From Plumapathes pennacea (taxonomy: Eukaryota > Cnidaria > Anthozoa > Antipatharia > Myriopathidae), in assembly GCA_964036295.1 (NCBI GenBank), contig OZ038467.1:3353501-3417500 (forward strand): DNA of 64,000 bases, written 5' to 3'. The notes under the pieces are model-generated. The model ran no database searches, was not told the origin of the DNA, and worked only from the letters and a program-made list of their open reading frames with translations. Positions 25,707 through 55,894 of the stretch are shown one piece after another. Each line of letters begins with the position of its first letter. Position 1 is the first letter of the stretch. The position numbers were made by a program, and so were the translations under genes.

Positions 25707-25805
25707 GTCAAACAAGCCATACGAAACGTATGTAGAACCGCCCGGATGCTTGACTGCAAAAAAAAAGAACTTGAAGATGATGAAGATTTCAGTATAGAAA
25801 CGTGA
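25707..25805 (+). pseudogene. Peptide precursor copy 1: orphan exon 2
   Basis: Only the second exon of the secreted-peptide family remains, after a normal-looking acceptor (CCACAG at 25,701-25,706). It reads V-K-Q-A-I-R-N-V-C-R-T-A-R-M-L-D-C followed by KKK and an acidic tail ending FSIET. Two differences stand out: the upstream KR processing pair is KQ here, and one extra Lys codon follows the second Cys. Exon 1, with the signal peptide, has been deleted. A poly(A) signal is at 25,879-25,884. Without a start the copy cannot make a secreted product by itself. Confidence 0.8.
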
Positions 25806-26005
25806 TGACTTTCAAGCTGTATTACTAACAACAAGATAGCAGTGTTCAGGCCTTGTTACATTTGACCATCAAAGTTGCAATAAAGTTATTACTGAAGACT
25901 TTGTCTTTGTAATGTGTAGCTGTTGACACTAACGGCGTCGTTTATTTAATGAATGTCTTATTTAAGGGCACATTCGATTAGGTCGATTCCGAAATAGGAA
26001 TAGCG

Positions 26006-26221
26006 ATGTTGATCAGTAGAATTCTTTGGTTTGGAGCTGACTTGGGTAGAGATGTGTCGGGAGCTGTTCAAAATGCCAGTGTGAAGGTTCTCAAAACAAT
26101 TTCGAACAAAATTCCTCCCGCAACAAGCAACCCTTATTCCGGAATAGACTCAATCGAACGCGCCCTAAATCACCGTATATGTGTCAATTGGGGATCGCGA
26201 GGAAAGAGAAAACTTGTATGA
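26006..26221 (+). CDS. 71-aa ORF of the duplicated unit, copy A
   Basis: ATG-to-stop frame reading MLISRILWFGADLGRD..., with a C-terminus rich in Arg/Lys (GSRGKRKLV). I do not recognise it. It lies 3' of the peptide gene in every unit and is open in six of the seven full-length copies. A consistent AATAAA about 240 bp after the stop (26,463-26,468) raises the possibility of a separate transcript. There is no signal peptide and no known motif. All good copies are recent duplicates, so an open frame alone is weak evidence of function. In this copy the frame upstream of the ATG is closed by a TAG. Confidence 0.3.
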   Translation: MLISRILWFGADLGRDVSGAVQNASVKVLKTISNKIPPATSNPYSGIDSIERALNHRICVNWGSRGKRKLV

Positions 26222-26761
26222 CCATAAAAAGTACTAGAGAATCGAAAAAACTACTAAGCGCTGAAAAGCAGTCCCTTGAGTTAAACATCAAACATCGAGG
26301 ACATTTTAGGGTGGAAGAGACACGAAATGGAATAAAGGATTTCAACTCATAGACAGTATTAAAGTTGTAGATTCATTATCAACATGGTGAAATCAACAGA
26401 ACCGTCACTAACCTACGCATCATTCTCTGTATTCGGCAAGCCTTTAATAGCATTTTGAGATTAATAAACAAAAATGTCACTTCACTTTTGGTAACTAGGT
26501 ATAAATGCATATTTATAAATGTTACTGGTTGATGTCGGCTTTGTTAATGGCCCGCTTATACCAGAAAAGCTGCCGGCGGACGGCAGGCGTCCAGCGGTTA
26601 CTAACAAAAGAACTCCATGTTCGCTTTGTGAAGATCAACTATACTGCAATCAACATGAGGGAAAGAAATATAAGGACAGGAGTCTTGATTTGATGGAGCT
26701 TGTTCGTTGAGCAATGTGTCGTATCTTAACTGTTTAATTCCCCTCTGAAATAACCGACTGA
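26222..26761 (+). repeat. Duplicated unit: intergenic segment
   Basis: Shared 3' flank of the unit, containing AATAAA, the GGCCCGCTTATACCAG word and the CTGCCGGCGGACGGCAG palindrome. The same block occurs at 30,038, 31,513, 33,543, 35,134, 54,030, 54,854 and 56,440. No gene is recognised. Confidence 0.8.
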
Positions 26762-26960
26762 CATGACTACCACGCCTCCGAATTCAGCAAACGCAGTCCT
26801 GGGTAGAAAAAAAGGACTAGCAGTAAGTCATAAATACTTCTGTAAAGTAATATCGGACAAATTGTTCAAAGCTTGTATATTTAAGGCTTCTTTTTATATA
26901 CTTATTATTATATAGAGGATATTACACGGCGGCGCGAAGATATGAATTTTATTTTCCAGT
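26762..26960 (+). pseudogene. Peptide precursor copy 2: truncated exon 1
   Basis: A remnant of exon 1 without promoter or signal-peptide codons. It begins CATGACTACCACG, encodes a pro-region ending V-L-G-R-K-K-G-L-A and keeps the donor GTAAGT. The intron then runs into unrelated repeat sequence (GGATATTACACGGCGG), so no exon 2 follows. The identical structure at 32,041 shows that the damage predates the local duplication. Confidence 0.75.
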
Positions 26961-27137
26961 GGTAAAAACAATATTTTACGAACGGCGGTTACTAACAAAA
27001 GAACTCCATGTTCGCTTTGTGAAGATCAACTATACTACAATCAACTCGAGAGAAAAAAATAAAAGGACAGGAGTCTTAATTTGATGGAGCTTGTTCGTTG
27101 AGCAATGTGTCGTATCTTGACTGTATTGATATTAAAA

Positions 27138-28912
27138 CTAGACTGGCCTTGCCAGTGAGCTCGCGGCGTGAGTTGGGTCGAGACCAGAATATAAAATGGA
27201 AAGTAGGGGACAAGAGCGGAACTCCCAAGAGAGACTTCCAATTTCTCACCATAAAAATATCACACAGTATAGAGAACTTGGCTTTTAACACCTTGCTCTT
27301 TTGACACCTTGATTAAACTAAAAATTATTATTACAACACTCATACACTTGCTTCTTAAAGGTTGAGCGACCCTGCATCTTGAGAATGCGTGACATATCTT
27401 TTTATGCACAATCGATTTTGACAGTTTGACCTTGACTCATATTTCTAATCAGAGGCCACGATTAATCCAGCCTTCGCTTCACTACTTATGTGTTTTCTTT
27501 TCTTAACTCAATACGTTTCTTCTATCAGGCTTTCGAGTATTCGTGCTCTGTAACAAATATAAAATTGAAAGCGAGGAATGTCACACGACAGATGTTTACA
27601 ATATTATTGCGCTTTTGTTCACAGTGTGTTCAGTCCATTTGTGACTGCAAACTCAATCCTCAGAATTATTTCGGTGTATTTTTCATTTCTGGTATTTAAT
27701 GAACATTGCGAAACAAAGACTACATGATCGAATGAAAGAAACACTTCAACAGGCAATGTACGATACGCAGAAGAATTTTATGAGGCAACAGATGTCATGT
27801 ACAGAGTAAGGCATGAAGCGTCATTGTTTTACGGCTAAAGCTCACCGTAGCTTTGGTTTCTGTTTTCGCCCTGTTATCTTCCCAAAAGTATTTCGTGTCG
27901 CCACAGAAAGTTTCGTTGGGACTAAATACTTATCGGCGACAGAGATATTTGCAATACCCCAGAAGTACCATCAAACATTTGTTTACGGCTATTCTCAAAG
28001 CTTGTGCGGTGAACGCGAGCCAAAATCTTTTCCTAAAATCCAGTTTATCCATGCCTATTCCACAGAGCCAAATGGCGTTGAATTTGAATGGGATGCAGTT
28101 TACTTTTTCGCTTCACTACTTATATGTTTTCTTTTATTAACTCAATACGTTTCTTTCTATCAGGCTTTCGAGTATTCGTGCTCTGTAAGAAATATAAAAT
28201 TGACAGCGAGGAATGTCACACGAGAGATGTTTACAATATTATTGCGCTTTTGTTCACAGTGTGTTCAGTCCATTTGTGACTGCAAACTCAATCCTCAGAA
28301 TTATTTCGGTGTATTTTTCATTTCTGGTATTCACTGACCATTGCGAAACAAAGGCTACATGATCGAATGAAAGAAACACTTCAACAGGCAATGTACGATA
28401 CGCAGAAGAATTTTATGAGGCAACAGATGTCATGTACAGAGTAAAGCATAAAGCGTCATTGTTTTACGGCTAAAGCTCACCGTAGCTTTGGTTTCTGCTT
28501 TCGCCCTGTTATCTTCCCAAAAGTATTTCGTGTCGCCACAGAAAGTTTCGTCGGGACTAAATATTTATCGGCGACAGCGGTACCATCAAATATTTGTATA
28601 CGGCTATTCTCAAAGCTTCCGCGGTGAACGCGAGCCAAAATCGTTCCCGAAAATCCAGTTTATCCGTGCCTATTCCACAGAGCCAAATGGTGTTGAGTTT
28701 GGATGGGATGCAGTTAACTTTTACACACAAGTAACGAGCAATTCAGTGGCCACATCTCGAGTTGTTTAGCGAAGTCAATTACGTCATCGCCCAGCACGTG
28801 ATAATATGAACCAATCACCGTGTGCTGATCCTCGACCCACAAAAAGGAAAAAAATAAAAAAATAAAAATCTCCATTCTTAAGCTCTCGTGGGCCCCAGGC
28901 CCCCGCGAGCAA
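27138..28912 (-). mobile_element. Helitron-like element, copy 1
   Basis: The insertion is proven by an empty site. The duplicate at 32,411-32,420 reads TTAAAATAAG without a break, while here 1,775 bp sit between ATTAAAA and TAAGG, with no target duplication and an A|T junction. On the minus strand the element begins TTGCTCGCGG with a terminal hairpin and ends with a short hairpin (ACTGGC-AAG-GCCAGT) directly before CTAG, as Helitron-type 3' ends do. It lacks the canonical 5' TC. Inside, about 330 bp are tandemly duplicated (27,480-27,810 and 28,130-28,450). No helicase is encoded, so the element is non-autonomous. An alternative reading is a 2-bp TT duplication by another element type. Confidence 0.65.
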
Positions 28913-29113
28913 TAAGGTGCGGGGTATTCTGTAATTTAGCCATTGTTTAATTCCACTCTGAAATAACCGGCTGACAGTTGTATGGCCATATAATAGTAAA
29001 TAATTGTCTATTGAGTTGGCGTGTCAATGTGACTGAATCAACACTAAGGCCAAGATAATTAGCGTTTTACACAGTATGTGTCAGTAACTGCACCTGAAGA
29101 TATTTTCTAGTGG
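28913..29113 (+). repeat. Duplicated unit: promoter-proximal segment
   Basis: Common 5' flank of the peptide genes, with GTCTATTGAGTTGGCGTGTC and AATCAACACTAAGGCC. Its near-identical partner is at 32,417-32,617. Confidence 0.75.
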
Positions 29114-29121
29114 ATAAATAG
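29114..29121 (+). promoter_or_regulatory. TATA box of peptide copy 3
   Basis: ATAAATAG lies 102 bp before the ATG. The same spacing recurs in copies 4, 5 and 6. Confidence 0.6.
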
Positions 29122-29215
29122 CCGCTCAACACGTACACTCGCAGTTAAACCTTTTCAGAGGATCTTTTTAGACACGACTGCCGCAGTTGCTTCAACAAAA
29201 ATTAGGCGGGAAAAC

Positions 29216-29523
29216 ATGAATTATCGGTTGGTTATTATCCTCTCCATGCTACTCATGACAGTGCATGGGACTCCCCCGGAACAGGAGGAGCTTGAAGCAA
29301 GCCCATGCGTGGGTAGAAAAAAAAGGACTAACAGTAAGTCATAAGTACTTATGTGAAGTAATATTGGACAGGTTGTTCAAAGCTTGTAATTTAAGGCTTC
29401 TTTTTTTTTTCACATTTTACACAACAGGTCAAACGAGCCATACGAAACGTATGTAGAACCGCCCGGATGCTTGACTGCAAAAAAGAACTTGAAGATGATG
29501 AAGATTTCAGTAGAGAAACGTGA
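29216..29523 (+). pseudogene. Peptide precursor copy 3, frameshifted
   Basis: A complete promoter, exon 1 (29,216-29,333), a 94-bp GT-AG intron and exon 2 (29,428-29,523) are all present, with a poly(A) signal at 29,597. The signal peptide (MNYRLVIILSMLLMTVHG) and pro-region are intact up to G-R-K-K. After that an A-run of eight, where intact copies have seven, shifts the frame. Spliced translation then reads exon 2 out of frame and stops within a few codons, losing the cysteine core. Exon 2 itself is undamaged. The extra A also occurs in copy 6, so it is either inherited or a shared homopolymer base-calling problem. Exon 1 also has an unusual extra Cys in the pro-region (SPCVG). Confidence 0.75.
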
Positions 29524-29821
29524 TGACTTTCAAGCTGTATTACTAACAGCAAGATAGCAGTGTTCAGGCCTTGCTACATTTGACCATCAAAGTTTCAATA
29601 AAGTTATTACTGAAGACTTTTTCTTTGTAATGTGTAGCTGTTGACACCAACGGCGTCGTTTTATTCACGAATTGTCGAACTGAACGCGACACGGTAAACA
29701 CTAGTCTTTATCCTGTCTCAGCCAAGCACCAGAAAATTAATCATGACGCTCTGCGCAGACTATTTCAAATTTCATATCTAATGGCGCATTCGATTCGGTC
29801 GATTCCGAAATAGAAATAGCG

Positions 29822-30037
29822 ATGTTGATCAGTAGAATTCTTTGGTTTGGAGCTGACTTGGGTAGGAATGCATCAGGAGCTGTTCAAAATGCCACTGTGA
29901 AGGTTTTCAAAACAATTTCGAACAAAATTCCTCCCGCAACAAGCAACCCTTATTCCGGAATAGACTCAATCGAACGCGCCCTAAATCACCGTATATGTGT
30001 CAATTGGGGATCGCGAGGAAAGAGAAAGCTTGCATGA
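29822..30037 (+). CDS. 71-aa ORF of the duplicated unit, copy B
   Basis: Same family as copy A, differing at a few residues (GRNASG, NATVKVF, final A). The upstream frame is broken by a missing A (CTAATGG against CTAAATGG in copy E), so only the ATG start at 29,822 is shared by all copies. Confidence 0.3.
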   Translation: MLISRILWFGADLGRNASGAVQNATVKVFKTISNKIPPATSNPYSGIDSIERALNHRICVNWGSRGKRKLA

Positions 30038-30700
30038 CCATAAAAAGTATTGGAGAATCGAAAAAAGTACTAAGCGCTGAAAAGCAGTCTCTTGAGTTAA
30101 ACATCAAACATCGAGGACATTTTAGGATGGAAGAGACACGAAATGGAATAAAGGATTTCAACTCATAGACAGTATTAAAGTTGTAGATTCATTATCAACA
30201 TGGTGAAATCAACAGAACCCCGTCACTAACCTACGCATCATTCTCTGTATTTGGCAAGCCTTTATAGCATTTTGAGATCAATAAACAAAAATGTCACTTC
30301 ACTTTTGGTAAGGTATAAATGCATATTTATAAATGTTACTGGTTGATATCGGCTTTGTTAATACCAGAAAACTGCCGGCGGACGGCAGGCGTCCAGTGGA
30401 TACTAACATAAGAACTCCATGTTCGCTTTGTGAAGATCAACTATTACAATCAACATGAGAAAAAGAATTAAAAAGACAGGAGTCTTAATTTGATGTAGCT
30501 TGTTCGTTGAGCAATGTGTCGTATCTTGACTGTTTAATTCCCCTCTGAAATAACCGGTTGACAGTTGTCCGGCCATTCATTAGTAAATAATTGTCTATTG
30601 AGTTGGCGTGTCAATGTGACTGAGTCAACACTAATGCCAAGATAATTAGCGTTTTACACAGTATGTGTCAGTAACTCCACCTGCAGATACTTTCCAGTGG
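30038..30700 (+). repeat. Duplicated unit: flank between copy B and peptide copy 4
   Basis: Shared unit sequence with AATAAACAAAAATG, the CTGCCGGCGG palindrome and the promoter-proximal block. No separate gene is seen. Confidence 0.75.
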
Positions 30701-30708
30701 ATAAATAG
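30701..30708 (+). promoter_or_regulatory. TATA box of peptide copy 4
   Basis: ATAAATAG, 102 bp upstream of the start codon. It is conserved in position across the family. Confidence 0.65.
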
Positions 30709-30802
30709 CCGCTCAACACGTACACTCGCAGTTAAACCTTTTCAGAGGATCTTTTTAGACACGACTGCCGCAGTTGCTTTACCAAAAACCAGGCGGGAAA
30801 AC

Positions 30803-31096
30803 ATGGATTATCAGTTGGTTATTATACTCTCCATGCTACTCATGACAGTGCATGGAACAGATGCACTTGAGCCAAACGTACCCGTGGGTAGAAAAAAAGG
30901 ACTAACAGTAAGTCATAAGTACTTATGTGAAGTAATATTGGACAGGTTGTTCAAAGCTTGTAATTTAAGGCTTCTTTTTTTTTCACATTTTACACAACAG
31001 GTCAAACGAGCCATACGAAACGTATGTAGAACCGCCCGGATGCTTAACTGCAAAAAAGAACTTGAAGATGATGAAGATTTCAGTATAGAAACGTGA
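30803..31096 (+). CDS. Secreted cysteine-peptide precursor, copy 4 (intact)
   Basis: Two exons: 30,803-30,907 and 31,001-31,096, with a 93-bp intron (GTAAGT...CACAACAG). The 66-aa product has four parts. Residues 1-18 are a signal peptide (MDYQLVIILSMLLMTVHG). A short acidic pro-region runs to GRKK (29-32). A basic pair KR at 37-38 follows. Then comes A-I-R-N-V-C-R-T-A-R-M-L-N-C (39-52), closed by KK and an acidic tail. The two Cys are separated by seven residues and probably form one disulfide. This copy has Asn where the others have Asp before the second Cys. GRKK, KR and KK are plausible prohormone-convertase sites. A TATA box at 30,701 and AATAAA at 31,170 complete the gene. I do not recognise the peptide. 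The layout fits a neuropeptide or antimicrobial peptide precursor. The intron is a multiple of three with no stop, so a retained form would stay in frame. Confidence 0.75.
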   Translation: MDYQLVIILSMLLMTVHGTDALEPNVPVGRKKGLTVSHKYLCEVILDRLFKACNLRLLFFSHFTQQVKRAIRNVCRTARMLNCKKELEDDEDFSIET

Positions 31097-31296
31097 TGAC
31101 TTTCAAGCTGTATTACTAACAACAAGATAGCAGTGTTCAGGCCTTGCTACATTTGACCATCAAAGTTTCAATAAAGTTATTACTGAAGACTTTGTCTTTG
31201 TAATGTGTAGCTGTTGACACTAACGGCGTCGTTTATTTAATGAATTTCTTATTTAAGGGCGCATTCGATTAGGTCGATTCCGAAATAGGAATAGCG

Positions 31297-31512
31297 ATGT
31301 TGATCAGTAGAATTCTTTGGTTTGGAGCTGACTTGGGTAGAGATGTGTCGGGAGCTGTTCAAAATGCCAGTGTGAAGGTTCTCAAAACAATTTCGAACAA
31401 AATTCCTCCCGCAACAAGCAACCCTTATTCCGGAATAGACTCAATCGAACGCGCCCTAAATCACCGTATATGTGTCAATTGGGGATCGCGAGGAAAGAGA
31501 AAACTTGTATGA
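31297..31512 (+). CDS. 71-aa ORF of the duplicated unit, copy C
   Basis: Protein identical to copy A, as expected from the 5.3-kb local duplication. No independent evidence of function. Confidence 0.3.
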   Translation: MLISRILWFGADLGRDVSGAVQNASVKVLKTISNKIPPATSNPYSGIDSIERALNHRICVNWGSRGKRKLV

Positions 31513-32617: not shown

Positions 32618-32625
32618 ATAAATAG
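32618..32625 (+). promoter_or_regulatory. TATA box of peptide copy 6
   Basis: ATAAATAG, 102 bp before the start codon. Confidence 0.6.
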
Positions 32626-32719: not shown

Positions 32720-33027
32720 ATGAATTATCGGTTGGTTATTATCCTCTCCATGCTACTCATGACAGTGCATGGGACTCCCCCGGAACAGGAGGAGCTTGAA
32801 GCAAGCCCATGCGTGGGTAGAAAAAAAAGGACTAACAGTAAGTCATAAGTACTTATGTGAAGTAATATTGGACAGGTTGTTCAAAGCTTGTAATTTAAGG
32901 CTTCTTTTTTTTTTCACATTTTACACAACAGGTCAAACGAGCCATACGAAACGTATGTAGAACCGCCCTGATGCTTGACTGCAAAAAAGAACTTGAAGAT
33001 GATGAAGATTTCAGTAGAGAAACGTGA
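32720..33027 (+). pseudogene. Peptide precursor copy 6, frameshifted
   Basis: Duplicate of copy 3: exon 1 32,720-32,837, exon 2 32,932-33,027, AATAAA at 33,101. It shares the eight-A run after the G-R-K-K codons that throws exon 2 out of frame. It also has a private change in exon 2, where the core Arg becomes Leu (C-R-T-A-L-M-L-D-C), which is expected once constraint is lost. Promoter, splice sites and both Cys codons remain. Confidence 0.75.
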
Positions 33028-34305: not shown

Positions 34306-34618
34306 ATGGATTATCAGTTGGTTATTATACTCTCCATGCTACTCATGACAGTGCATGGGACTCCCCCGGCGAAACCGGAGGAGTATGAGCCAAACGCACC
34401 CGTGGGTAGAAAAAAAGGACTAACAGTAAGTCATAAGTACTTATGTGAAGTAATATTGGACAGGTTGTTCAAAGCTTGTAATTTAAGGCTTCTTTTTTTT
34501 TTTTTCACATTTTACACAACAGGTCAAACGAGCCATACGAAACGTATGTAGAACCGCCCGGATGCTTGACTGCAAAAAAGAACTTGAAGATGATGAAGAT
34601 TTCAGTAGAGAAACGTGA
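34306..34618 (+). CDS. Secreted cysteine-peptide precursor, copy 5 (intact)
   Basis: Exon 1 34,306-34,425 and exon 2 34,523-34,618 around a 97-bp intron, AATAAA at 34,692. The 71-aa precursor has an 18-residue signal peptide, then an acidic Pro/Glu pro-region (TPPAKPEEYEPNAPV) ending in GRKK. KR follows, then the core A-I-R-N-V-C-R-T-A-R-M-L-D-C, KK, and a strongly acidic tail (ELEDDEDF). The basic core and acidic pro-pieces balance in charge, as in many cationic peptide precursors. The start is fixed by the signal peptide and the TATA distance. This is the cleanest copy of the recent set. The family is unknown to me. Processing and amidation at G-R-K are inferred. Confidence 0.78.
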
Positions 34619-37639: not shown

Positions 37640-37895
37640 GACTACCACGCCTCCGAATTCAGCAAACGCAGTCCTGAGTAGAAAAAAAGGACTAGCAGTA
37701 AGTCATAAATACTTCTGTAAAGTAATATCGGACAAGTTGTTCAAAGCTTGTATATTTAAGGCTTCTTTTTATATACTTATTATAAATACATATATACGTT
37801 TCACAACACAGGTCAAACGAGCCATACGAAACGTATGTAGAACCGCCCGGATACTTGAATGCAAAAAAGAACTTGAAGATGATGAAGATTTCTAG
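37640..37895 (+). pseudogene. Peptide precursor copy 7, start lost
   Basis: Exon 1 here is the truncated type. The ATG seen at 26,763 is CTG, no signal peptide is encoded, and G-R-K-K has become S-R-K-K. The donor GTAAGT (37,698) and acceptor (CACAG at 37,807-37,811) are kept. Exon 2 (37,812-37,895) reads V-K-R-A-I-R-N-V-C-R-T-A-R-I-L-E-C-K-K and then the shorter tail ELEDDEDF before TAG. AATAAA lies at 37,979. It shares the early TAG with copy 9, which points to a common ancestor for those two tails. Confidence 0.75.
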
Positions 37896-38207: not shown

Positions 38208-38693
38208 CGCTGTCGTTTTATTTAACGAATTGTCGAACTGAACGCGACGCGGTAAACACTAGCCTTTATCCTGTCTCAGTCAAGTACCAGAAAGTTAACT
38301 ACGACTCTCTGCGCAGACTATTTTAAATTATGTGTTAAATGAGGAACGCTGCACCTTACTATGAATATAGCTTGTCTGAGCTGGTCTCAAGCAAAGACAT
38401 ATACAAAAAAGTTTCAGGTAAAGTGAGTAATGATCACAGCACAGCTTTCAACTGAGCAGCTAGAAGCCAAGACTGATTGGGCCTCTGATAGTTCATGTTG
38501 GTTATATTCCAAACTATGGGTTGTTTTCCGCTTCAGTCAGGAGTATATTTAAATGTCTGAATACTGAAAGAGAGAGCTTGTCTAACGACAAGAGTACTAG
38601 AGAGTCGAAAAAACTGCCGTAAAAGCAGTTTCTTTCAACATCAAACACCGAGGGCATTTCAGGGTGGAAGAGACACAAAATGGAAATACAGTA
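38208..38693 (+). repeat. Duplicated unit: decayed segment
   Basis: Recognisable unit words (GAATTGTCGAACTGAACGCG, CGCAGACTATTTTAAA, GAGGGCATTTCAGGGTGG) are interspersed with unrelated sequence. The 71-aa ORF is absent. No gene is seen. Confidence 0.6.
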
Positions 38694-38868
38694 TTGATCA
38701 CGATATTTTGATCAGCAAGCTGTCGATACGCGGTGTAAATAACAACGACTTCGAATGGTTTAAGAGCTATTTACAGGGGAGAAATCAATTTGTCGGGTGT
38801 GAAAGCGCAGAGTCCGAACGGCGTTCATTCATCCACGGAGTCCCGCAGGGTTCGATCCTAGGTCCGAT
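38694..38868 (+). pseudogene. Reverse-transcriptase fragment (non-LTR type)
   Basis: One open frame reads SIDHDILISKLSIRGV, then W-F-K-S-Y-L-Q-G-R-N-Q-F-V and H-G-V-P-Q-G-S-I-L-G-P. These are the expected order and spacing of a LINE reverse-transcriptase palm region (DHDIL...KL, WF.SYL..R.Q.V, GVPQGSILGP). The catalytic YxDD segment does not follow, so this is a 5'- and 3'-truncated scrap of about 58 codons. It lies just before the receptor pseudogene. Confidence 0.8.
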
Positions 38869-39071
38869 CACAAAGACACTGCTGATCTCTAAGAGACTCA
38901 ACATTACTCAGACCTCGTTTAAATTCTCGGCTGCTTTCTATAGATATATTATTTTTACACTGGTCACCGATTAATACCAGCCAATCTAGTGATTGACTGC
39001 CCGGTTTTATCAGTATAAATAAAGATATTATTATTTCAACTAATAAACAGGTAGTTACCATTTTCTATGTA
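38869..39071. other. Spacer between RT fragment and receptor pseudogene
   Basis: AT-rich, no coding signal. It may be more LINE-derived sequence. Confidence 0.4.
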
Positions 39072-39890
39072 CTATTTTCACATTCATCTACGTATATCTG
39101 GATCACTGGCCTTTTGGTGAATACGCTTGCACCGTTGCCCCTCCAAGTGTTGTCTCTCTTCGTGGTGACCAACACGCTCGCAGCCATCGCAGCTTACCGC
39201 TTCGTTTTTATCGTCTCACATCAGGATTACCGTCACTAACTACAGACTCATCCTGTTCTTCTCTCTGTTGTGGCTGGTTGCGCTTGCAGTGTCTACGGCC
39301 TCTCTTCATTTTCCGCAAAGTACTCTTACATAAAGGAAACAGCTTCTGCATCATGCCAAAATTTAAAGACAGCAAACTTAATAATTACGAGATCGCCAGG
39401 TTCATCCTGAACTTTAGACTGCCGTACCTGATCACGGTAATGTCCTACGCTGCCATGGCTTCGAAGTCAGAAAGCACATCAAGCGCAACAGGAGAGAAGC
39501 AGCGGAAATGACCGAACTGGGAGAAACCACCAATCAGACCCTACAGGAGGAAGAGCCGATTCAGCAACAAGACACGCGGAAGCCACCCAGAGAACGCAGG
39601 AAAAGCTCCAGAGCGATCGTTGACCGGGAAAACGATCTGCTGAAAATGATTTATGCCATCATCATTGTCTTCGCTGTGTGCTATCTGCCTTAAGGGCAGT
39701 TCCTTTTCCACATATTCGGTGGATATAAACGCTATCCCGAAGCCAAACAATACCAAAGAATCATTCAGCAGTACAGCTTGCTTCTGGCGAGCTTGTCGAG
39801 CGCTCTCCACCCTCTGTGTTACGGCACTATGAATAAGTTTTACGCCAAGTTCTTCTCGAGATTGGTGTTGTGCAGTTACAAGTCTAAATA
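39072..39890 (+). pseudogene. Rhodopsin-class receptor pseudogene
   Basis: The sequence aligns along its length with the receptors at 47,208 and 59,219, but begins only at the end of transmembrane helix 2 (TTTCACATTCATCTACG). Damage relative to the intact copies includes a 5-bp loss after GCTTGCACCGTT (about 39,135), a 2-bp loss in ATCGTCTCACATC (about 39,215), a gained base in GTGTCTACGGCC, and an in-frame TAA at CTGCCTTAAGGG (about 39,690) in helix 6. Helix 7 (A-L-H-P-L-C-Y) and the short tail remain. The 3' flank is shared with the intact copies to about 41,305, so a whole gene segment was duplicated and then decayed. Confidence 0.9.
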
Positions 39891-46655: not shown

Positions 46656-47207
46656 CTTTGACTGGTCGATTTACGTACCGTTGTAAAGTGTTGTCATACT
46701 GTACATCCGGCGATGCATAGTACTGGCCAGAACCTTTCATTCAAGCGTTTTTGGCATACATATTTTCAAAAACTGCGATTTGAGGCAAACTTAAAACACC
46801 GCGCACAAGAACTTCGCGACGCAACACCATGAACCTCCGTATCCGTTCAGTCGGCGCCAAGTTCGTCGATTCACAACACTGAAGTAACCTTTCGTTTGAG
46901 CGGTCTGACACATCGAATACTGTGGCAAGTTATCCTGGTAAGTTTGAAGCAATTCATCGTGAAATTATTCACTAACCTGATCACCTCGCTGAAAGCGCTG
47001 TGACCTCATGGGTTTCTCGTGATCACGAGCTTGTCACGAAGCAGCCTTCGCCGCCCTGTCATTGTTTCCTCGACCAATAGCGAAGTTCGCGCACAATCGG
47101 CAATCCAGTGCTTCCTTTCATTGGTTCCGAATATCAACGCGCGACCATTTATTGATTCTTACTTACTTAAGCACCCGATGACAAAAAGAAAACAAAAGGC
47201 GACGGAA
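46656..47207 (+). other. 5' flank of the receptor gene
   Basis: No clear TATA box. The receptor frame stays open upstream to a GTG at 47,019 and has another ATG at 47,178. A 5' exon could lie here, but I cannot place one. Confidence 0.35.
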
Positions 47208-48284
47208 ATGGCAGAATCACAAAACGTTTCCTTGCAGAGCACTCCAATCCCAACAAGCGCATCTGAAGCAGCATCGTTTGAAGAACCACAGGCATCAAAA
47301 ATCTTCCGAATCATCTTCTTCTCGCTGACCACCTTGGCGTCCCTCCTGGGGAACTCAGTCATGTTGAAAGCCGCCAGCGCATATCCTTCAAGGAAACCCC
47401 TGTCCTACCATCTGGTGACCAACTTGGCCGCGGCAGAGATCATCAGCACGCTGTGTCTTATTTTCACATTTATCTACGTTTATCTGGATCACTGGCCTTT
47501 TGGTGAATTCGCTTGCACCGTTACCATTCCCCTTCAAGTATTGTCTCTTTTCGTGGTGACTAACACGCTCGCAGCCATCGCAGCTTACCGCTTCGTTTTT
47601 ATCGTCTTCCACATCAGGATTACCGTCACTAACTGCAGACTCATCCTGTTCTTCTCTCTGTTGTGGCTGGTTGCGCTTGCAGTGTCTATGCCTCTCTTCC
47701 TTTTCCTCGAAGTAGTCTTATATAAAGGAGACAGCTTCTGCACCGTGCCAAATTTCAAAGGCAGTAGTCATGATTACGAGATCGCCAGGTTCATCCTGAA
47801 CTTTGGACTGCCGTACCTGATCATGGTAATGTCCTACGCTGCCATGGCTACGAAACTCAGAAAGCACATCAAGCGCAGCAGGGAGGAAGCAGTGGAAATG
47901 TCCAAACTGGGAGAAACCACCAATCAGACCCAAGAGGAGGAAGAGCCGATTCAGCAACAAGACACGGAAGCCACCAATAGAGAACGCAGGAAAAGTTCCC
48001 GAGCGATCGTTGACCGGGAAAACGATCTGCTGAAAATGATTTATACCATCATCATTGTCTTCGCCGTGTGCTATCTGCCTTACCAAGTGCAGTTCTTTTT
48101 CTACATCTTCGATGGATATGAACGCTATCCCGAAGCCAAGCAATACAAAAAAATCATTCGGGAGTACAGCTTGCTTCTGACGAGCTTGTCGAGCGCTCTC
48201 CACCCCCTTTGTTACGGCACCATGAATAAGTTTTACGCCAAGTTTTTCTCGAGATTGGTGTTGTGTAGTTGCAAGTATGAATAG
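47208..48284 (+). CDS. Peptide-receptor-like GPCR (rhodopsin class), copy 2
   Basis: Intronless seven-helix receptor, 358 aa from the ATG at 47,208. This start is chosen because it is the homologous ATG of the second intact copy. Visible parts: N-glycosylation site NVS at 6-8; helix 1 with GNS (49); helix 2 (T-N-L-A-A-A-E, 71-77); F-T-F-I-Y-V-Y-L-D-H-W-P-F-G-E before Cys103, strikingly like neuropeptide Y-type receptors. Cys178 in loop 2 should pair with Cys103. The third intracellular loop is long, Glu/Gln-rich (215-275). Helix 6 has F-A-V-C-Y-L-P (285-291). Helix 7 has A-L-H-P-L-C-Y. The tail is short with C-S-C, a possible palmitoylation site. Odd points: the DRY motif is A-Y-R (126-128) and NPxxY is HPxxY. 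It should act at the plasma membrane. The ligand is unknown. Confidence 0.9.
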   Translation: MAESQNVSLQSTPIPTSASEAASFEEPQASKIFRIIFFSLTTLASLLGNSVMLKAASAYPSRKPLSYHLVTNLAAAEIISTLCLIFTFIYVYLDHWPFGEFACTVTIPLQVLSLFVVTNTLAAIAAYRFVFIVFHIRITVTNCRLILFFSLLWLVALAVSMPLFLFLEVVLYKGDSFCTVPNFKGSSHDYEIARFILNFGLPYLIMVMSYAAMATKLRKHIKRSREEAVEMSKLGETTNQTQEEEEPIQQQDTEATNRERRKSSRAIVDRENDLLKMIYTIIIVFAVCYLPYQVQFFFYIFDGYERYPEAKQYKKIIREYSLLLTSLSSALHPLCYGTMNKFYAKFFSRLVLCSCKYE

Positions 48285-49163
48285 AACATTTGGCGGACTT
48301 ATTCAGCATTCCGAACACTGAATAACACTGATCACAGTCATCAAGGTATCTTACACCACGACTAGAGTGGTTTCAGCTAGGTTTTCTAATGCAAACTAAA
48401 CCATGCCATTTGCATGGATATTAAAAATATTAGAAATCGTTTAGCTTATAAAAAGGTATTTAGCACCAATGAAAAGATACTGAGCGTTAAATATATACAC
48501 AAGGTGCATTCCACTGTTAGAAAATAAATTCTACTGAAGAAAAAAAATGCCGTTTGGCCGATAATTTATTATTTATACCCTAACATGTCCAATTCAACCG
48601 AAAACATTAACTTAACACGGAGCCCGGTTGTTCAAACTTGAACAGGAGGCTAATCCCGTACTATTGGTTGTAACTTTGCTTTAATGTTTTAGGATGAAAA
48701 CGAATAGCCGGTTTTGCTCACAACACATGCAATCTTCCTTGATATTTGCTTTATTGGCTAAAACAAACTTCTTATGGTCCGTTTGCACAAGACGTAAATG
48801 TAAATTTTAGGGGCCGAGAGAGCAAGATGGCAGCTTCTTAGAAGTTGGCAGCGTGACAAGCAACACGTTCGAGTCGGCGACAAACTGTCGTTTACTGTGC
48901 AGTACACTTGAAAAGTTGTAAATGTCGGCATTATATCTTCACACAAATTAGAGAAGTAAATATACAGTAAATGTTTTAGATAGATGAGAATATACGAATA
49001 AATGGGTTCTACACATGTAGTGAATACGTGTGTATAGAAACAGCTGAAGGTGTATTTACATGTTTATAAAAAAAATAAATTTATGTTCGTGTCACTTGGA
49101 GTTATTGCAGGTGAAGTTCTAGACCCTCTTTGAAACAATAATACGCAATAAATAGTCTCTAAA

Positions 49164-49433
49164 ATGAATGATGAGTTCTATTTGAGTTACTTTCGCTTTT
49201 TGAAATGCATAGCTCTGTGCCTTGTGAGTCAGGCTTGTCAGCTGCCTCAAATGACAGATTCATTTATTACAAGCAAAATCAAACAATCATTAAAAAAAAT
49301 GCACAGTGTTATTAGAGCGTCAAAATTAATAGAAAGGAGCTTTGTCATAAACGAAGTTGGCGGCTTATTGGCTCCTTATTATCAGCATTATTGTTTAAAA
49401 CAAGAAAATTCTGTACTTTCTTTGCTGCCATGA
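49164..49433 (+). CDS. 89-aa ORF in the receptor 3' flank, copy 2
   Basis: An ATG-started frame about 880 bp after the receptor stop, present in both intact duplicates (also 61,138). No signal peptide or known domain, though residues 12-25 are mildly hydrophobic. Between the two copies I count three amino-acid changes (I/V, V/I, L/F) and one silent change. That is no sign of protein-level constraint. It may be untranslated 3' sequence. Confidence 0.2.
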   Translation: MNDEFYLSYFRFLKCIALCLVSQACQLPQMTDSFITSKIKQSLKKMHSVIRASKLIERSFVINEVGGLLAPYYQHYCLKQENSVLSLLP

Positions 49434-49693: not shown

Positions 49694-50620
49694 ATCAGAC
49701 TGCGAATAATAATTAAAACACATTTGCACACAGCGCACACACAGACTGATGTAACAGACCAGTACACTAGTAAAGTCAGTTAAATGAAGGGTTAGCTTTA
49801 GATCGATCATAATTTCCCGGTCGTAGTGTTGCTTTTTTCATATGAGTTCGCACTCGCACCTCGTTGTTAATACGACAAGTGACAGACGTTTCTGTTTAGC
49901 AGGGATTCTCAAGTTGTCAGTGTTAATAATTTCAAGTGACTTAAAAATCATGATTCATGAACACACCACCGGACTACCATCTCCATGTAAAAAAAAGTTT
50001 TACATTTGTCCGTCACAAACATAATCATAATCAGGTCATTGGTAATCATTAGTTAATATGCAAACTTTCCAATCAACAATCAGCATATATGGCAAATAGA
50101 CCGGCCCCAGCCATCGGTGAGTTTGGCGCTGAAAATGATTGAATAAACATGACAAATATCTCTGTCCGCAGAAATTAGTCGTCGACATTTATTCCCCTCC
50201 CTTTACGCTTGACTTCGAAATAACGAGGGCTTCAAATGAACCGAGTTTGAAATAGCTGGGTTCGACTGTACAGTTTTAATGTCGTCGCCAATAGTTCCGA
50301 AAACTAGTTTCTTCCAGTAGCCTCATCTCTTTTTACACAGAGTGGGTACATCTGTGCGATAACACATCCCCCGGACCGCACTGCTTTAAAAAAATATTCC
50401 AGGAGGGGCACTCACAATAATAAGCTGATAGGTGAAAGAGGTGGAAGATCCTCAGACTCAACAAAGGGTGTAGAATAGTCGTACTTTTTGGTATTTTAAA
50501 GGGATCATTGAGAACGGCCGGACTAACGAATTTAATAGGGATGTAAATCTCTCGAGCCTCACAGTTGAGGTCTTCACAACACCGCGTTGTCGCGTTCAAG
50601 TGTTCTTGAAGTCTTTCTGA
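49694..50620. other. No gene seen
   Basis: AT-rich and unremarkable. Short CA-rich words (CACACAGCGCACACACAG) lie near 49,727. I could not find this sequence after the paralogous breakpoint at 61,657. Confidence 0.4.
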
Positions 50621-52148
50621 TTGCTCGCGGACAGCGCAGCTGCGGCGAGCTTAAAAATGGAGGTTTTTTTGTTTTCCTTTTTCTGGGTCGAGAATCAGCA
50701 CACGGTGATTGGTTCATATTATCACGTGATATGCGATGACGTAAATCGCCGCCCGGTTGGCTTAGTTGGTTGAGTGCCGGTCTTTCGTGCGGGATGTCGC
50801 GGGTTCGAACCCCGGCCGGACCAGCACTCGGGGTCTTACAATAACTAAGGAGAAGATGCTGCCTTTGTTTTTATCAGCAAATGGTAAGATCTTCACGTGG
50901 CTCGGATGACTACGTAAAATGGCGGTATCGTCCCCCTATACTTCTATACTTGATTACAGGGGGACGTAAAAGAACCACTGAGGACGTAAACAAATTTCTG
51001 GCAGTGACCACTCTCAGTGCCTGTACTCCACAGTAGTGTGGCGAAGCCAAATTGTTGCTAAAAAGCCCCTTGAGGGGAGCATCAATAAAAATATGTGTGT
51101 AATGTATGTAATTGACTTCGCTAAACAACTCGAGATGTGGCCAGTGAATATTGCTCGTTACTTGTGTGTAAAAGTTAACTGCATCCTATCCAAACTCAAA
51201 ACCATTGGGCTCTGTGGAACATGTACGGATAAACTGGATTTTAGGGAATGATTATGGCTTGTGTTCTTAAGTTCACCGCTGAAGCTTTGAGAATAGCCGT
51301 AAACAAATGTTTGATGGATACCGCTCGGGGATTGCAAATTTCTCTGTCGCCGCTAAAAATTTAATCCCGACGAAACTTTCTGTGGCGGCACGAAATACTT
51401 CTGGGAAGATAACAGGCCGAAAACGGAAACGAAAGCTACGATGAGCTCAGTTTGGCCGCAAAACAATGACGATTTATGCTTTACTCTGTGCATGACATCT
51501 GTTGCCTCATAACATTCTTCTGCTTATCGTACATTGCCTGTTGAAATGTTTCTTTCATTCGATCATGTAGCCTTTGTTTCGCAATGGTCATTGTATACCA
51601 GATATGAAAAATACACCGAAATAGTCCTGAGCATTGAGTTTGCAGTCACAAATGACTGTGAACAAAACCGCAATAATAATGTAAAACAATTATTGTCGTG
51701 TTATATTCCTCGCTTTCAATTTTATATTTGTTACAGAACACGAATACTCGAAAGCCTGATAGAAGAAACGTATTCAGTTAATAAAAGAAAACACAAAAGT
51801 ATTGAAGCGAAGGCTGGATTAATCGTGGCCTCTGGTTAGAAATAAGAGTCGAGGTCAAACTGTCAAAAATCGATTGTGCATAAAAAGATATGTAACGCAT
51901 TCTCAAAATTCAGGGTCGCTCTCCTTTAAGAAGCAAGTGTATGAGTGTTGTAATGATAATTTATAGTTTAATCAGGTTTCATTTGAGCAAGGTGTCAACG
52001 GCCAAGTTCTCTATACTGTGTGATATTTTTCTGGTGAGAAACTGGAAGTCTCTCTTGGGAGTTCCACTCTTGTCCCTACTTTCCATTTTAGTATATTCTG
52101 GTCTCGACGCAACTCACGCCGCGAGCTCACTGGCGACGCCAGGTCTAG
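50621..52148 (+). mobile_element. Helitron-like element, copy 2
   Basis: Reverse-orientation relative of 27,138-28,912. It begins TTGCTCGCGG after an A. A terminal hairpin (GCTCGC...GCGAGC with inner CGCAGCTGCG) follows, and the 3' end is a short hairpin (CTGGC-GAC-GCCAG) then GTCTAG with T following. It shares the T-rich tract, GTGATTGGTTCATATTATCACGTG, and the internal AATAGCCGTAAACAAATGTTTGATGG block with copies 1 and 3. A SINE sits inside it (50,745-51,107). Small ORFs are degenerate. Confidence 0.65.
50745..51107 (+). mobile_element. tRNA-derived SINE
   Basis: A 363-bp insertion in the Helitron-like element, flanked by GTAA (50,741-50,744 and 51,108-51,111). The uninterrupted form GACGTAATTGACTTCGC is present in copy 1. 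The head (50,751-50,823) has a polymerase III A box (TGGCTTAGTTGG, 50,758-50,769) and B box (GGTTCGAACCC, 50,802-50,812). It folds as a degenerate tRNA with a CGT loop, resembling tRNA-Thr but with a mismatched acceptor. The body contains GCACTCGGGGTCTTA and GGGGGACGTAAAAGAACC, familiar from coral SINEs. Not a functional tRNA gene. Confidence 0.85.
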
Positions 52149-53406
52149 TTAAAGGTATAAAACAAAGGAGAATACTGTAACCAGAGGTATACCCATAGGT
52201 ATACAGCTGATAAAAGGGTCATTATTTCGACGGCCGAGCTCGTTGTACAAAATTTCTTTAAGTCTTACCCCTCCCTGGCGAGAAAAACTCCGACTATGCG
52301 GCGTCGAAACTACGTGCACATCTCCGCACCTCAATAAAAATACTTCCCTGCTACATGACAGCTGATCAATTCATGCAATTTTAGCTTATTGACACGCGAC
52401 CATGAGTGTTCGTCGAGCATAATAATCATTTTTAATGATCAGTAAATTGTTTTCCTCGCATGAGTCGAGCTTCAGCTGTTCGTCAGGACACAAGTTGAAG
52501 TAAAGAAAATTTAGTAATATATGTTATTTAGTCATATTGGTTTGACTGTTTCTTTGTTGTGCATCGATGATGATAATACTCAAAATTATTAGCCTACCCG
52601 TGCTGTGAACACCCTTGGGCTGGGTCTAAATTTTCAGTGTGATATTCTTTTTTCTGGCTAATGTGGCTGCCCACATGTTTGCCGACTTATTATCGACCTG
52701 ACACCGCTGCTGCAAACTGCTAAGTCACAATTCTAGAACAGGAAACAGCACCGCAGATGCATGTTTGTTGTTCAGTAGAAACTGGGCGAGCCATTTCAAT
52801 ACTCAGCTGTTTACAGCATTGTGTTCACATAGAGCGAGGTATTGATATTTACGGTCACCGTAATTACTCTCTGTTTGTTTACAAGATAGAGCTTGGTTGG
52901 TCGTGTTTCGTTGCCATTTATTTTTCCGCAACGTAAGTAAAACATATCAATTTCAAAACGTTACCACAGATAATGGTCACACCCACTTCCAGAATCTAAG
53001 CGTAGTTAATTAAAACGCAAATTCTTGACAGTTCCAAAAAAAAAAAAAACATGAAGGCGGAAAAATAACTGACATCGAAGCACAAGGCTTTTAAAAGCAG
53101 GTGAAGCAAAGACAACGCTACAATTTTCCATCTTACAAATCTTTGACGGCTAGTTCCAGTAAAAATGTGGACTAAAATTATCTCGTGTGCATAATTTTAT
53201 TTTCGTTAAAAATCAAACGAAGTTACAATGAGGTTAACTGGTGTGAGACAAAACATTATGTAATCACTCTTTTTAATGAAATGCCTCCCACATTCAAATA
53301 TTTGCCTCTCTTTAATCGAGTCCGGGTCAGTCACTGTGCAAGGTCTAGGTAATTGGTTTTGATCATAGCATGCATGTCAGTAACATATGGTGCTTTCTAA
53401 ATAAAA
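52149..53406. other. No gene seen
   Basis: About 1.26 kb without a supported gene. Contains an inverted-repeat-like stretch around TTTAATGATCAGTAAA (52,431), an A-run near 53,037 and scattered repeat-like words. Confidence 0.45.
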
Positions 53407-53414
53407 ATATATAA
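53407..53414 (+). promoter_or_regulatory. TATA box of peptide copy 8
   Basis: ATATATAA, 91 bp before the start codon. The surrounding promoter differs completely from the other copies. Confidence 0.55.
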
Positions 53415-53497
53415 CGAACGGCGTACGTTCTGGCAGGTAAACGTTCGTGAAGGATCTCAACACTACTGTCTCGGCTAATTCGCTGCAAAACGGGAAA

Positions 53498-53855
53498 ATG
53501 AATTATCGGTTGGTTATTGTTCTCTCATTGCTGCTCGTCAATGTATTTGCATCTAATCACATAACACGCCGTATAAGTACAGGCAGGAAGAAAAGCTTGA
53601 CAGTAAGTTCAGCATGCCCAGGCTTTCAACCCCTGAAAAAATGAAGAAACTATTTATTGTTATTATAATATTATTATTTCTTTTTTCTTGTATTTTTTTT
53701 CTTTTTTTTTACTATCATTATTATTGTTATCATTGTTATATTTTCTCTCTCTCATTCCATCACAGGACAAACTAGCCAGACGAAACGTATGTGAAAGCGC
53801 CAGAATGCTGGACTGCAAAAGAGGAAGTTATTATCTGAGGATCTTGATGACTTGA
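53498..53855 (+). CDS. Secreted cysteine-peptide precursor, diverged copy 8
   Basis: Exon 1 is 53,498-53,602 and exon 2 is 53,766-53,855, with a T-rich 163-bp intron (GTAAGT...CATCACAG) and AATAAA at 53,888. The 64-aa precursor starts with a signal peptide (MNYRLVIVLSLLLVNVFA). It keeps the first basic site G-R-K-K and has a dibasic R-R directly before N-V-C-E-S-A-R-M-L-D-C, then K-R and a new hydrophobic tail (GSYYLRILMT) instead of the acidic one. Promoter, intron, pro-region and tail no longer match the other copies, while the core, both Cys and the flanking basic pairs do. This is the best evidence in the window that the cyclic core is the functional product. It probably represents an older paralogue. 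Expression is not shown. Confidence 0.78.
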
Positions 53856-54029
53856 AGTACAGCGTTTGATTCATTCCACATTTGACAAATAAAATTATAT
53901 GTCAGACCATTTCGTAAACATCCGATTGTTATGTTCAGTCGCCACGGACCTTTTTATGCGCAAGGCAAGGTACAATATTACTACACATTCAAACTCTTTA
54001 AAAAAACGTATAATATATTAAAGTTTTTA

Positions 54030-54637
54030 ATTAAAGTTGTAGATTCATTATCAACATTAAAATCAACAGAACCGTCAGTACGCATCATTCTCTGTATTCG
54101 GCAAACCTTTGATAGCATTTTGAGATTAATAAACAAAAATGTCACTTCACTTTTGGTAAGGTATAAATGCATATTTATAAATGTTACTGGTTGATGTCGG
54201 CTTTGTTAATGGCCCGCTTATACCATAAAGCTGCCGGCGGACGGCAGGCGTCCAGCGGTTATACTAACAAAAGAACTCCATGTTCGCTTTGTGAAGATCA
54301 ACTATACTGCAATCAACATAAGAGAAAGAAATAAAAGGACTGCAGTCTTAATTTGATGGAGCTTGTTCGTTGAGCAATGTGTCGCATCTTGACTGTTTAA
54401 TTCCCCTCTGAAATAACCGGCTGACAGTTGTGCGGCCATTCATTAGTAAATAATATTGTCTATTGAGTTGGCGTGTCAATGTGACTGAATCAACACTAAG
54501 GCCAAGATAATTAGCGTTTTACACAGCGCGTGTCAGTGACTCCACCTGCAGATACTTTCCAGTGGAAAGCGCAGACTATTTTAAATTTCTTATCTAAGGG
54601 CGCATTCGATTAGGTCGATTCCGAAATAGGAATAGTG
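54030..54637 (+). repeat. Duplicated unit: flank, promoter remnant and joined 71-aa ORF leader
   Basis: The unit flank resumes with GTAGATTCATTATCAACATT. The peptide promoter is present to CTTTCCAGTGG (about 54,566), but TATA, exons and intron are deleted and the sequence jumps to AAAGCGCAGACTATTTT. This is therefore a unit without its peptide gene. Confidence 0.75.
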
Positions 54638-54853
54638 ATGTTGATCAGTAGAATTCTTTGGTTTGGAGCTGACTTGGGTAGGATTGAATCGGGAGCTGTT
54701 CAAAATGCCAGTGTGAAGGTTTTCAAAACAATTTCGAACAAAATTCCTCCCGCAACATGCAACACTTATTCCGGAATAGACTCAATCGAACGCGCCCTAA
54801 ATCACCGTAAATGTGTCAATTGGGGATCGCGAGGACAGAGAAAGCTTGCATGA
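54638..54853 (+). CDS. 71-aa ORF of the duplicated unit, copy F
   Basis: Open frame with several private changes (GRIESG, ATCNTYSG, NHRKCVNW, GQRKLA). It is the most diverged of the intact copies but still full length. Function unknown. Confidence 0.3.
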   Translation: MLISRILWFGADLGRIESGAVQNASVKVFKTISNKIPPATCNTYSGIDSIERALNHRKCVNWGSRGQRKLA

Positions 54854-55487
54854 CCATAGAAAGTACTAGAGAATCGAAAAAACTACTAAGCGCTGAAAAG
54901 CAATCTCTTGAGTTAAACATCAAACATCGAGGACATTTTAGGGTGGAAGAGACACGAAATGGAATAAAGGATTTCAACTCATAGACAGTATTAAAGTTGT
55001 AGATTCATTATCAACATGGTGAAATCAACAGAACCGTCACTAACCTACGCATCATTCTCTGTATTCGGCAAGCCTTTAATAGCATTTTGAGATTAATAAA
55101 CAAAAATGTCACTTCACTTTTGGTAAGGTATAAATGCATATTTATAAATGTTACTGGTTGATGTCGGCTTTGTTAATGGCCCGCTTATACCAGAAAGATA
55201 AGAACGCCATGTTCGTTTTGTGAAGATCAACTATACAATCAACATGAGAGAAAGAAATAAAAAGACAAGAGTCTTTTTGGTGGAGCTTGTTCGTTGAGCA
55301 ATGTGTCGTATGTTGAGTGTTTAATTCCTCACTGAAATAACCGGCTGACAGTTGTGTGGCCATATATTAGTAAATAGTTGTCTATTGAGTTGGCGTGTCA
55401 ATGAGACTGAATCAACACTAAGGCCAAGATAATGAGCTTTTTTCACAGCGTGTGTCAGTAACTCCACCTGCAGATACTTTCCAGTGG
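54854..55487 (+). repeat. Duplicated unit: flank before peptide copy 9
   Basis: Unit flank lacking the CTGCCGGCGGACGGCAG palindrome, followed by the full promoter-proximal block. Confidence 0.75.
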
Positions 55488-55495
55488 ATATATAG
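55488..55495 (+). promoter_or_regulatory. TATA box of peptide copy 9
   Basis: ATATATAG, 104 bp before the start codon. It replaces the ATAAATAG of the other copies and is a closer match to the TATA consensus. Confidence 0.65.
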
Positions 55496-55591
55496 CCGCT
55501 CAACACGTACACTCGCAGTTAAACCTTTCCAGAGGATCTTTTTAGACACGACTGCCGCAGTTGCTTCACGCCAAAAATTAAGCGGGAAAAC

Positions 55592-55894
55592 ATGAATTAT
55601 CAGTTGGTTATTGTCCTCTCCATGCTACTCATGGCAGTGCATGGAACTCCCCCGGGGACTGAAGATGCAAGGATTGGCAGAGAGGAAGGACTAGCAGTAA
55701 GTCATAAGCACTTCTGTAAAGTAATATCGGACAAGTTGTTCAAAGCTTGTATTTAAGGCTTCTTTTTATTATGACTTATTATAAATGCATGTATATGTTT
55801 CACACCACAGGTCAAACGAGCCATACGAAACGTTTGTAGAACCGCCCGGATGCTTGACTGCAAAAAAGAACTTGAAGATGATGAAGATTTCTAG
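55592..55894 (+). CDS. Secreted cysteine-peptide precursor, copy 9 (intact)
   Basis: Exon 1 55,592-55,696, intron 114 bp, exon 2 55,811-55,894, AATAAA at 55,978. The 62-aa precursor has the signal peptide (MNYQLVIVLSMLLMAVHG) and a short pro-region. Here the usual G-R-K-K is G-R-E-E, so the first cleavage or amidation site is lost. The K-R before the core, the core A-I-R-N-V-C-R-T-A-R-M-L-D-C, and K-K after it are unchanged. The tail stops early (ELEDDEDF then TAG), as in copy 7. Loss of the first site with retention of the two around the core argues that only the core matters. Confidence 0.78.

Follow-up and report, generated by a model that had tools for sequence, protein, structure and literature searches.

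What do the short secreted peptides encoded side by side in a small region of the genome of the anthozoan Plumapathes pennacea act on, and which part of them carries the message? The question arises from a stretch of 64,000 nucleotides (assembly GCA_964036295.1, contig OZ038467.1, here C6, positions 3353501-3417500; hereafter the window), which belongs to a genome of 290 Mb on 24 contigs. An earlier sequence-only reading of the window had noticed a family of two-exon genes with a two-cysteine core and had taken their product to be a cyclic core peptide of 11-14 residues. Here, we describe a linked family of class-A G-protein-coupled receptor (GPCR) genes, unmentioned in that reading, which is the strongest clue to function. 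We propose an array of linked peptide-GPCR cassettes at this locus, with specificity probably residing in an amidated peptide from the N-terminal part of the precursor, a reading that on present sequence evidence we regard as about evenly poised between right and wrong. According to the available text of PMC11087051, a cnidarian genome can contain more than a thousand GPCR genes, and for most of these no ligand is known. The majority of the receptor family described here adjoins a candidate ligand gene, so that the genome itself proposes pairs.

With the core protein as query, a search of the species' own genome yielded 14 candidates, all of which were scored and all of which are copies of the second exon on C6. 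They form two clusters at 3.38-3.46 Mb and 4.41-4.42 Mb. Eight copies lie in the window, all on the plus strand; of the other six, four map to 3.427-3.456 Mb and the last two to 4.409 and 4.420 Mb. The eight window copies were found at the positions previously given, and all eight carry the core pattern NVC-x2-A-x2-(L/I)-x-C followed by KK or KR, but the whole family is bigger than those eight. A 33-base degenerate form of the core pattern had nine forward matches in the genome, every one on C6, while its reversed control had none, which places the core family far above chance. Nine of the genes are intact, with spliced in-frame models of two exons separated by a phase-0 GT-AG intron of 80-613 nt at the same place in every one. 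Five of them lie 0.01-1 Mb downstream of the window, at C6 3426937 (p3427), 3440629 (p3440), 3456006 (p3456), 4408350 (cassette 4409) and 4419705 (cassette 4420). The window itself holds six signal-peptide exons (29216, 30803, 32720, 34306, 53498 and 55592), and the four genes read as intact have sound spliced models, with TATA-like and AATAAA boxes that are present by eye reading only. Their introns measure 93, 97, 163 and 114 nt in the order listed below, in agreement with the 93-163 bp reported before. In window positions, the copies are:

30803..31096, plus strand, intact peptide gene with an in-frame spliced model (exon 1 30803-30907, intron 30908-31000, exon 2 31001-31096 with stop)
34306..34618, plus strand, intact peptide gene, spliced model (exon 1 34306-34425, intron 34426-34522, exon 2 34523-34618)
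53498..53855, plus strand, intact, more divergent peptide gene, spliced model (exon 1 53498-53602, intron 53603-53765, exon 2 53766-53855)
55592..55894, plus strand, intact peptide gene, spliced model (exon 1 55592-55696, intron 55697-55810, exon 2 55811-55894)
25707..25805, plus strand, broken exon-2 copy without a signal exon
29216..29523, plus strand, broken copy, its frame lost after Gly-Arg, where the A-run is longer
32720..33027, plus strand, broken copy with the same frame difference as 29216
37812..37895, plus strand, broken exon-2 copy of which just the last part of exon 1 is left

A fifth broken copy, C6:3431220, has a stop in the signal region on manual reading. Copies 29216 and 32720 are out of frame at the usual acceptor, and because this difference sits in a run of A it could be an assembly error.

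Judged by their predicted products, these are short secreted precursors with an N-terminal signal peptide. A hydropathy scan that also required Gly-basic-basic detected a hydrophobic N-terminus in eight of the nine intact genes, and in 55592, which falls outside the Gly-basic-basic rule, one was seen by eye. The signal peptide is followed by a segment of about 10-15 residues, then Gly-Arg with KK, KR or EE, a short link and the core, which in most copies reads K-R-A-x-R-N-x-C-x2-A-R-x3-C-K-(K/R) and in six of the nine intact genes is followed by an acidic tail. Gly-Arg is retained in all nine (GRKK in seven, GRKR in one, and GREE in 55592, with R-x-x-R across the site), as it is in three of the four broken copies still having the site; in 37812 it is Ser-Arg. 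In cnidarian precursors, glycine before basic residues directs amidation and cleavage (available parts of PMC11087051 and PMC6909153), and R-x-x-R is given as a cleavage site in the accessible text of the former. By its form, Gly-Arg would mark the peptide preceding it for amidation and cleavage. Five genes have NVPV, NAPV, RLPV, NHPI or VIPA before the Gly, and four have IST, TST, ARI or MRV; family C-termini such as RFamide, RWamide or RPamide were not found there in the nine intact genes. In gene 4419705 Lys-Arg precedes the segment, which contains C-x4-C.

The earlier reading is supported as to a secreted precursor family, one under constraint, and the family remains unrecognised, with no Pfam family for three precursors (E<=1) and, for one query, no match among solved structures. 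The C-x7-C spacing, retained in all 14 exon-2 copies, is indeed unlike that of vasopressin, somatostatin, melanin-concentrating hormone and allatostatin-C. Across the nine intact genes the rest of the core pattern holds in part: KK or KR after the core persists in eight, whereas NVC is lost in three. A basic pair before the core is present in all four intact window genes (KR in three, RR in 53498), but family-wide KR is found there in only seven of nine. The cyclic core as the product fares less well, since a dibasic site precedes it in those seven genes only, against Gly-Arg in nine of nine.

The core could nevertheless be the receptor ligand, released as a cyclic peptide between Gly-Arg-Lys-Lys or Lys-Arg and the Lys-Lys/Arg that follows it, with the N-terminal segment an unconstrained spacer. 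This is the main alternative within the cassette idea; we judge it unlikely, though far from negligible. The invariant C-x7-C speaks for it, as does the variation between cassettes in the two residues after the first Cys, while the incomplete Lys-Arg site in front of the core speaks against it, together with the retention of a glycine for which core cleavage alone has no need. Very improbable, in our view, is a diversifying array of secreted effectors of antimicrobial or venom type, next to which the GPCRs would be chemoreceptors with another ligand. The core is cationic and the segment evolves fast in some pairs, as such effectors would have it, but the core has only two Cys, neither Pfam nor solved structures yield a known family, and the closely linked GPCRs are of peptide type. 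The acidic pro-piece formerly likened to that of cationic antimicrobial precursors also fails to appear before the core, the net charge of the segment being -2 to +2 in six precursors.

The receptor genes of the window are:

47178..48284, plus strand, intact class-A GPCR gene, 92% identical to the one at 59219, with its start placed at the first ATG of the open frame
59219..60253, plus strand, intact class-A GPCR gene (Pfam 7tm_1, E=6e-36)
39059..39885, plus strand, decayed receptor copy in two overlapping matched stretches, one with one TAG and five TAA

The product of the gene at 59219 matches Pfam 7tm_1 over 260 of 260 positions and has neuropeptide Y Y2 receptors as its best PDB matches, followed by amine and chemokine receptors, among others; from these matches it is classed as a class-A GPCR of peptide type. 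The search of the genome for its family scored 117 of 714 candidates, and at a cut-off of at least 55% identity to it there are nine intact receptors, itself included, found only at C6 3.39-3.48 and 4.41-4.43 Mb, the same two clusters that contain the peptide genes. Five of the nine have an intact same-strand peptide gene 0.6-3.7 kb upstream. Measured from exon 2 to receptor start, the distance is 1.7 kb in cassette 4409 (receptor 4410917), 3.7 kb in cassette 4420 (4424251), 0.7 kb from p3440 (3441665), 0.6 kb from p3456 (3456949) and 3.3 kb from 55592 to 3412719, the receptor at window position 59219. Receptor 3435628 has the broken copy 3431220 4.2 kb upstream, and the nearest intact peptide gene to receptor 3400753 lies 12.6 kb upstream, with broken copies of both kinds between.

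Seen from the other side, every intact peptide gene has an intact same-strand receptor within 17 kb downstream, although the receptor nearest to p3427 is a decayed, inverted one 1.2 kb away. From C6:3427253 to 3436647 the order is intact peptide gene, decayed inverted receptor, broken peptide copy and intact receptor, an arrangement that is a possible partner exchange between cassettes. A first look at the 290 Mb gave 2407 7tm_1 candidates (147 scored), or one per ~120 kb, and by our arithmetic, which ignores clustering, a same-strand receptor would be expected within 4.4 kb downstream of about 2% of random sites. Scans of prokaryote and viral contigs, made for the receptors only, found no relatives.

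Such linkage could also arise by hitch-hiking, in which unrelated secreted-peptide and GPCR genes were duplicated as one block with no ligand-receptor tie. This is the main rival, and we consider it rather improbable. The young cassettes do share their flanks too: a near-identical 93-residue open reading frame (ORF), which is part of the duplicated block, lies ~0.9 kb downstream of each intact window receptor (49152-49433 and 61126-61407, the latter without a Pfam match). The old cassettes, by contrast, have diverged nearly everywhere else, yet both genes are intact and adjacent in two separate clusters. In blastn alignments of these (E<=1e-3; global per-region identities were dropped because free gaps inflate them), cassettes 4409 and 3440 match in exon 2 (59 nt, 76%) and in the receptor coding sequence (CDS) and nowhere else. 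Cassettes 4409 and 4420 share exon 2, the receptor CDS and one 52-nt minus-strand match. For cassettes 4420 and 3440 the shared parts are the receptor, 30 nt of exon 2 and a further match of 41 nt; the comparisons with cassette 4420 lack 750 of its bases. Introns, signal exons and spacers are past alignment. That only exon 2 and the receptor CDS still align implies that both genes are under constraint and that their pairing has outlasted nearly all of its surroundings; that exon 2 is the sole part of the peptide alignable across old cassettes also counts in favour of the core as ligand. In a receptor tree of 14 rows, with a distant C4 row left out, 3441665 groups with 3456949/3464840 (100/100), and the peptides p3440 and p3456 agree with this grouping in sharing a three-residue deletion.

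Between signal peptide and Gly-Arg, the precursor changes in a different manner. The segments of the intact window genes are:

30857..30886, plus strand, hypervariable segment of gene 30803, from signal peptide to Gly-Arg and a candidate amidated ligand, its start set by us at codon 19
34360..34404, plus strand, hypervariable segment of gene 34306
53552..53581, plus strand, the same segment of gene 53498, unexceptional against p3427
55646..55675, plus strand, hypervariable segment of gene 55592

In all nine copies measured, the segment is 30-45 nt long and its length a multiple of three. Nine copies (36 pairs) were compared pairwise for substitutions only, with Fisher tests against intron plus flanks. 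The segment differs at 8/31 sites between p3440 and p3456, against 22/576 (p=5e-5), at 9/30 between 34306 and 55592, against 48/592 (p=8e-4), and at 9/42 between the broken copy 29216 and 34306, against 24/594 (p=1e-4). In a sliding-window test that counts indels, the segment is the most diverged stretch of p3440/p3456 (12 events in 36 columns, with 0 of 2121 other windows as high) and of 34306/55592 (13/45, 0 of 963). Windows as high or higher number 19/850 for 29216/34306 (homologous part only), 19/849 for 32720/34306, 13/634 for 29216/30803 and 3/920 for 29216/55592, and those listed for these four pairs sit at the alignment edge. If the core were the ligand, the spacer should change at the pace of the intron and not faster.

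The receptors show a comparable concentration of change in their outer parts. Among the six closest, w (the ratio of nonsynonymous to synonymous change) is 0.28-0.70 in all 15 pairs, and the receptor genes are therefore constrained overall. In the seven pairs tested, nonsynonymous differences crowd the extracellular side in four close pairs (odds 3.1-8.3); one distant pair has extracellular odds of 2.8 with synonymous change also raised, and two pairs with 3435628 have no extracellular excess (odds 1.3 and 1.5). A codon site model of the six receptors (328 codons, N-terminus excluded) places 7.6% of codons at w=6.6, with twice the log-likelihood difference (2dlnL) at 46.1 for M1a against M2a and 46.3 for M8a against M8, while the highest value in null simulations under M1a (n=25) was 12.7. 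The value falls to 28.2 without loop 2, 26.0 without loop 3 and 6.6 (p=0.036) without both. Eight sites have an M2a posterior above 0.9 (four in loop 2, three in loop 3 and one in the C-terminus), as do ten under M8, seven of them in loops 2 and 3 and the extra ones in upper helix 2 and the third inner loop. With loop boundaries taken from the alignment and a hydropathy reading, the two regions in the receptor at 59219 are:

59690..59734, plus strand, extracellular loop 2 region, residues 158, 159, 165 and 172 with posterior above 0.9
60107..60121, plus strand, extracellular loop 3 region, residues 297, 300 and 301 with posterior above 0.9

Positive selection is thus evident in the receptors, falling for the most part on extracellular loops 2 and 3. 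Such loop-specific selection in peptide-linked receptors argues against hitch-hiking, given that three peptide-less sister receptors have a loop w of 0.31-0.43 and odds of 0.6-2.1, one of the three pairs, at odds of 2.1, having a nonsynonymous loop excess together with raised synonymous change. These sisters are an imperfect control, being more diverged and compared by pairwise tests only. The core as ligand is likewise hard to square with the receptors, as it is near-identical in 30803, 34306 and 55592, yet the receptors downstream differ in loops 2 and 3.

We favour the cassette reading because the long-kept pairing of an amidation-type precursor with a peptide-type receptor goes together with a segment that is fast in several pairs and with fast outer loops. 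Each cassette would consist of a small secreted neuropeptide-type precursor gene followed by a same-strand class-A peptide-receptor gene. After signal cleavage, processing at Gly-Arg(-Lys-Lys) would free an N-terminal peptide of ~10-15 residues, amidated at its C-terminus and different in each cassette, which most likely sets receptor specificity. The same processing would set loose the C-terminal part, conserved and carrying the C-x7-C ring, in many cases along with an acidic tail; this part may act as a second peptide or as a folding or sorting partner. The adjacent GPCR, with its fast-evolving loops 2 and 3, would be the receptor for the peptide of its own cassette. Processing, amidation, the disulfide and mutual binding of neighbours are all predicted here from gene and protein sequences.

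Several observations weigh against this reading. Linked paralogues can travel in a block duplication without a functional tie, and the true ligand may be the Cys core, which is where the deep conservation of the precursor lies. Two of the nine receptors are without a peptide gene of their own, which would suit hitch-hiking: 3464840 has none between it and the preceding receptor, and 3477340 none in 9.4 kb upstream. More distant relatives, three with 43-44% identity and a fourth on C2 with 40%, likewise showed no peptide gene in the flanks covered. A search for divergent genes by core profile, exon-1 scan and flank comparison found none in the partial flanks of 3464840, 3477340, 3516790, 3523716, 3535334 and C2:20025555; the best core-profile score there, 15.3, lies within the top scores of five shuffled windows (12.9-18.4). 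The segment test reaches p<0.05 in only nine of the 36 pairs, uncorrected and non-independent. Most of the remaining pairs are older, with flanks themselves diverged, but the close pairs 30803/34306 (p=0.26) and 53498/p3427 (p=0.80) are not significant either. In the sliding-window test, the former has 45/1089 windows as high (near 31200), which leaves its segment only partly exceptional, and the latter, with 103/699, lends no support. Gene conversion in the array could distort both segment and receptor tests, the site model was run with our own code and not PAML, and its set includes 3464840. Charge complementarity between segment and receptor loops was absent in six pairs (r=-0.19, permutation p 0.39). 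In these paralogue comparisons from one genome, diversification is clear for the receptor loops, and for the segment it is clear in some pairs and not in others.

Other features of the locus and genome were recorded alongside. A 300-nt repeat has seven window copies from 26140-26439 to 56385-56684, 88-98% identical to the reference copy, which lie downstream of peptide copies and overlap short ORFs (e.g. 29747-30037, without a Pfam match). The ORF at 38561-38974 resembles, by eye, a reverse transcriptase fragment. Inverted repeats at 27416-28859 and 50664-52076, 84-94% complementary, ~22-25 kb apart and with an internal 635-nt direct repeat, look like a dispersed element. Elsewhere in the genome, an Antho-RFamide type precursor on C1, with a motif typical of anthozoans, gives 18 pattern matches within 536 bases. 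The RFamide pattern also matches units ~13 kb apart, three near the C2 end (37912873-37939649) and four on C23 (6269-44938), which at a guess are a long tandem array, possibly ribosomal DNA.

How does this locus compare with known systems? In the papers searched, the letter strings of the core turned up only as two unrelated word matches, and among the matches listed, mostly from non-subscription literature available in part, there was no report of the core, the peptides or linked peptide-GPCR cassettes in cnidarians. Anthozoan precursors of the Antho-RIamide/LRWamide type likewise have a signal peptide, one peptide copy and Gly plus basics (e.g. GKR), but the available text (PMC7523074) describes no conserved C-terminal C-x7-C, fast-evolving peptide part or linked receptor. 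Kinship with the 'RIamides' and 'PVamides' of Nematostella, named without sequences in the accessible part of PMC6756747, is possible. The scyphozoan and cubozoan peptides CTSPMCWFRPamide and CKGQMCWFRamide (PMC6909153, in part) share with gene C6:4419705 a C-x4-C, three residues and an amidation-type site, a resemblance of spacing in one copy, the other intact genes having no Cys pair in the segment. The deorphanised neuropeptide GPCRs of Nematostella are also cnidarian class-A receptors of peptide type, one cluster of which has expanded within Hexacorallia, but the available text (PMC11087051) does not describe linkage of receptor and precursor genes.

If the cassette reading is true, peptide and receptor co-diversify in animals through linkage, as they do at the mating-type and pherotype loci of fungi and bacteria. 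Bacterial agr and ComQXPA pherotype cassettes and fungal pheromone/receptor loci have peptide and receptor side by side and co-diversifying, although the agr and ComQXPA receptors are histidine kinases and the genes are unrelated to those described here. It is conceivable, if improbable, that the array is a pherotype-like animal system serving recognition at the level of individuals, gametes or species. Each tandem cassette would then encode one GPCR together with the amidated peptide private to it, and the two would be copied jointly and diverge in step. The s-Themis/v-Themis pairs of Ciona are not known as peptide-GPCR pairs. As the cassettes would be, these self-sterility genes are paired, variable recognition genes that occur as several pairs in a marine invertebrate, as described in the available part of PMC7018956.

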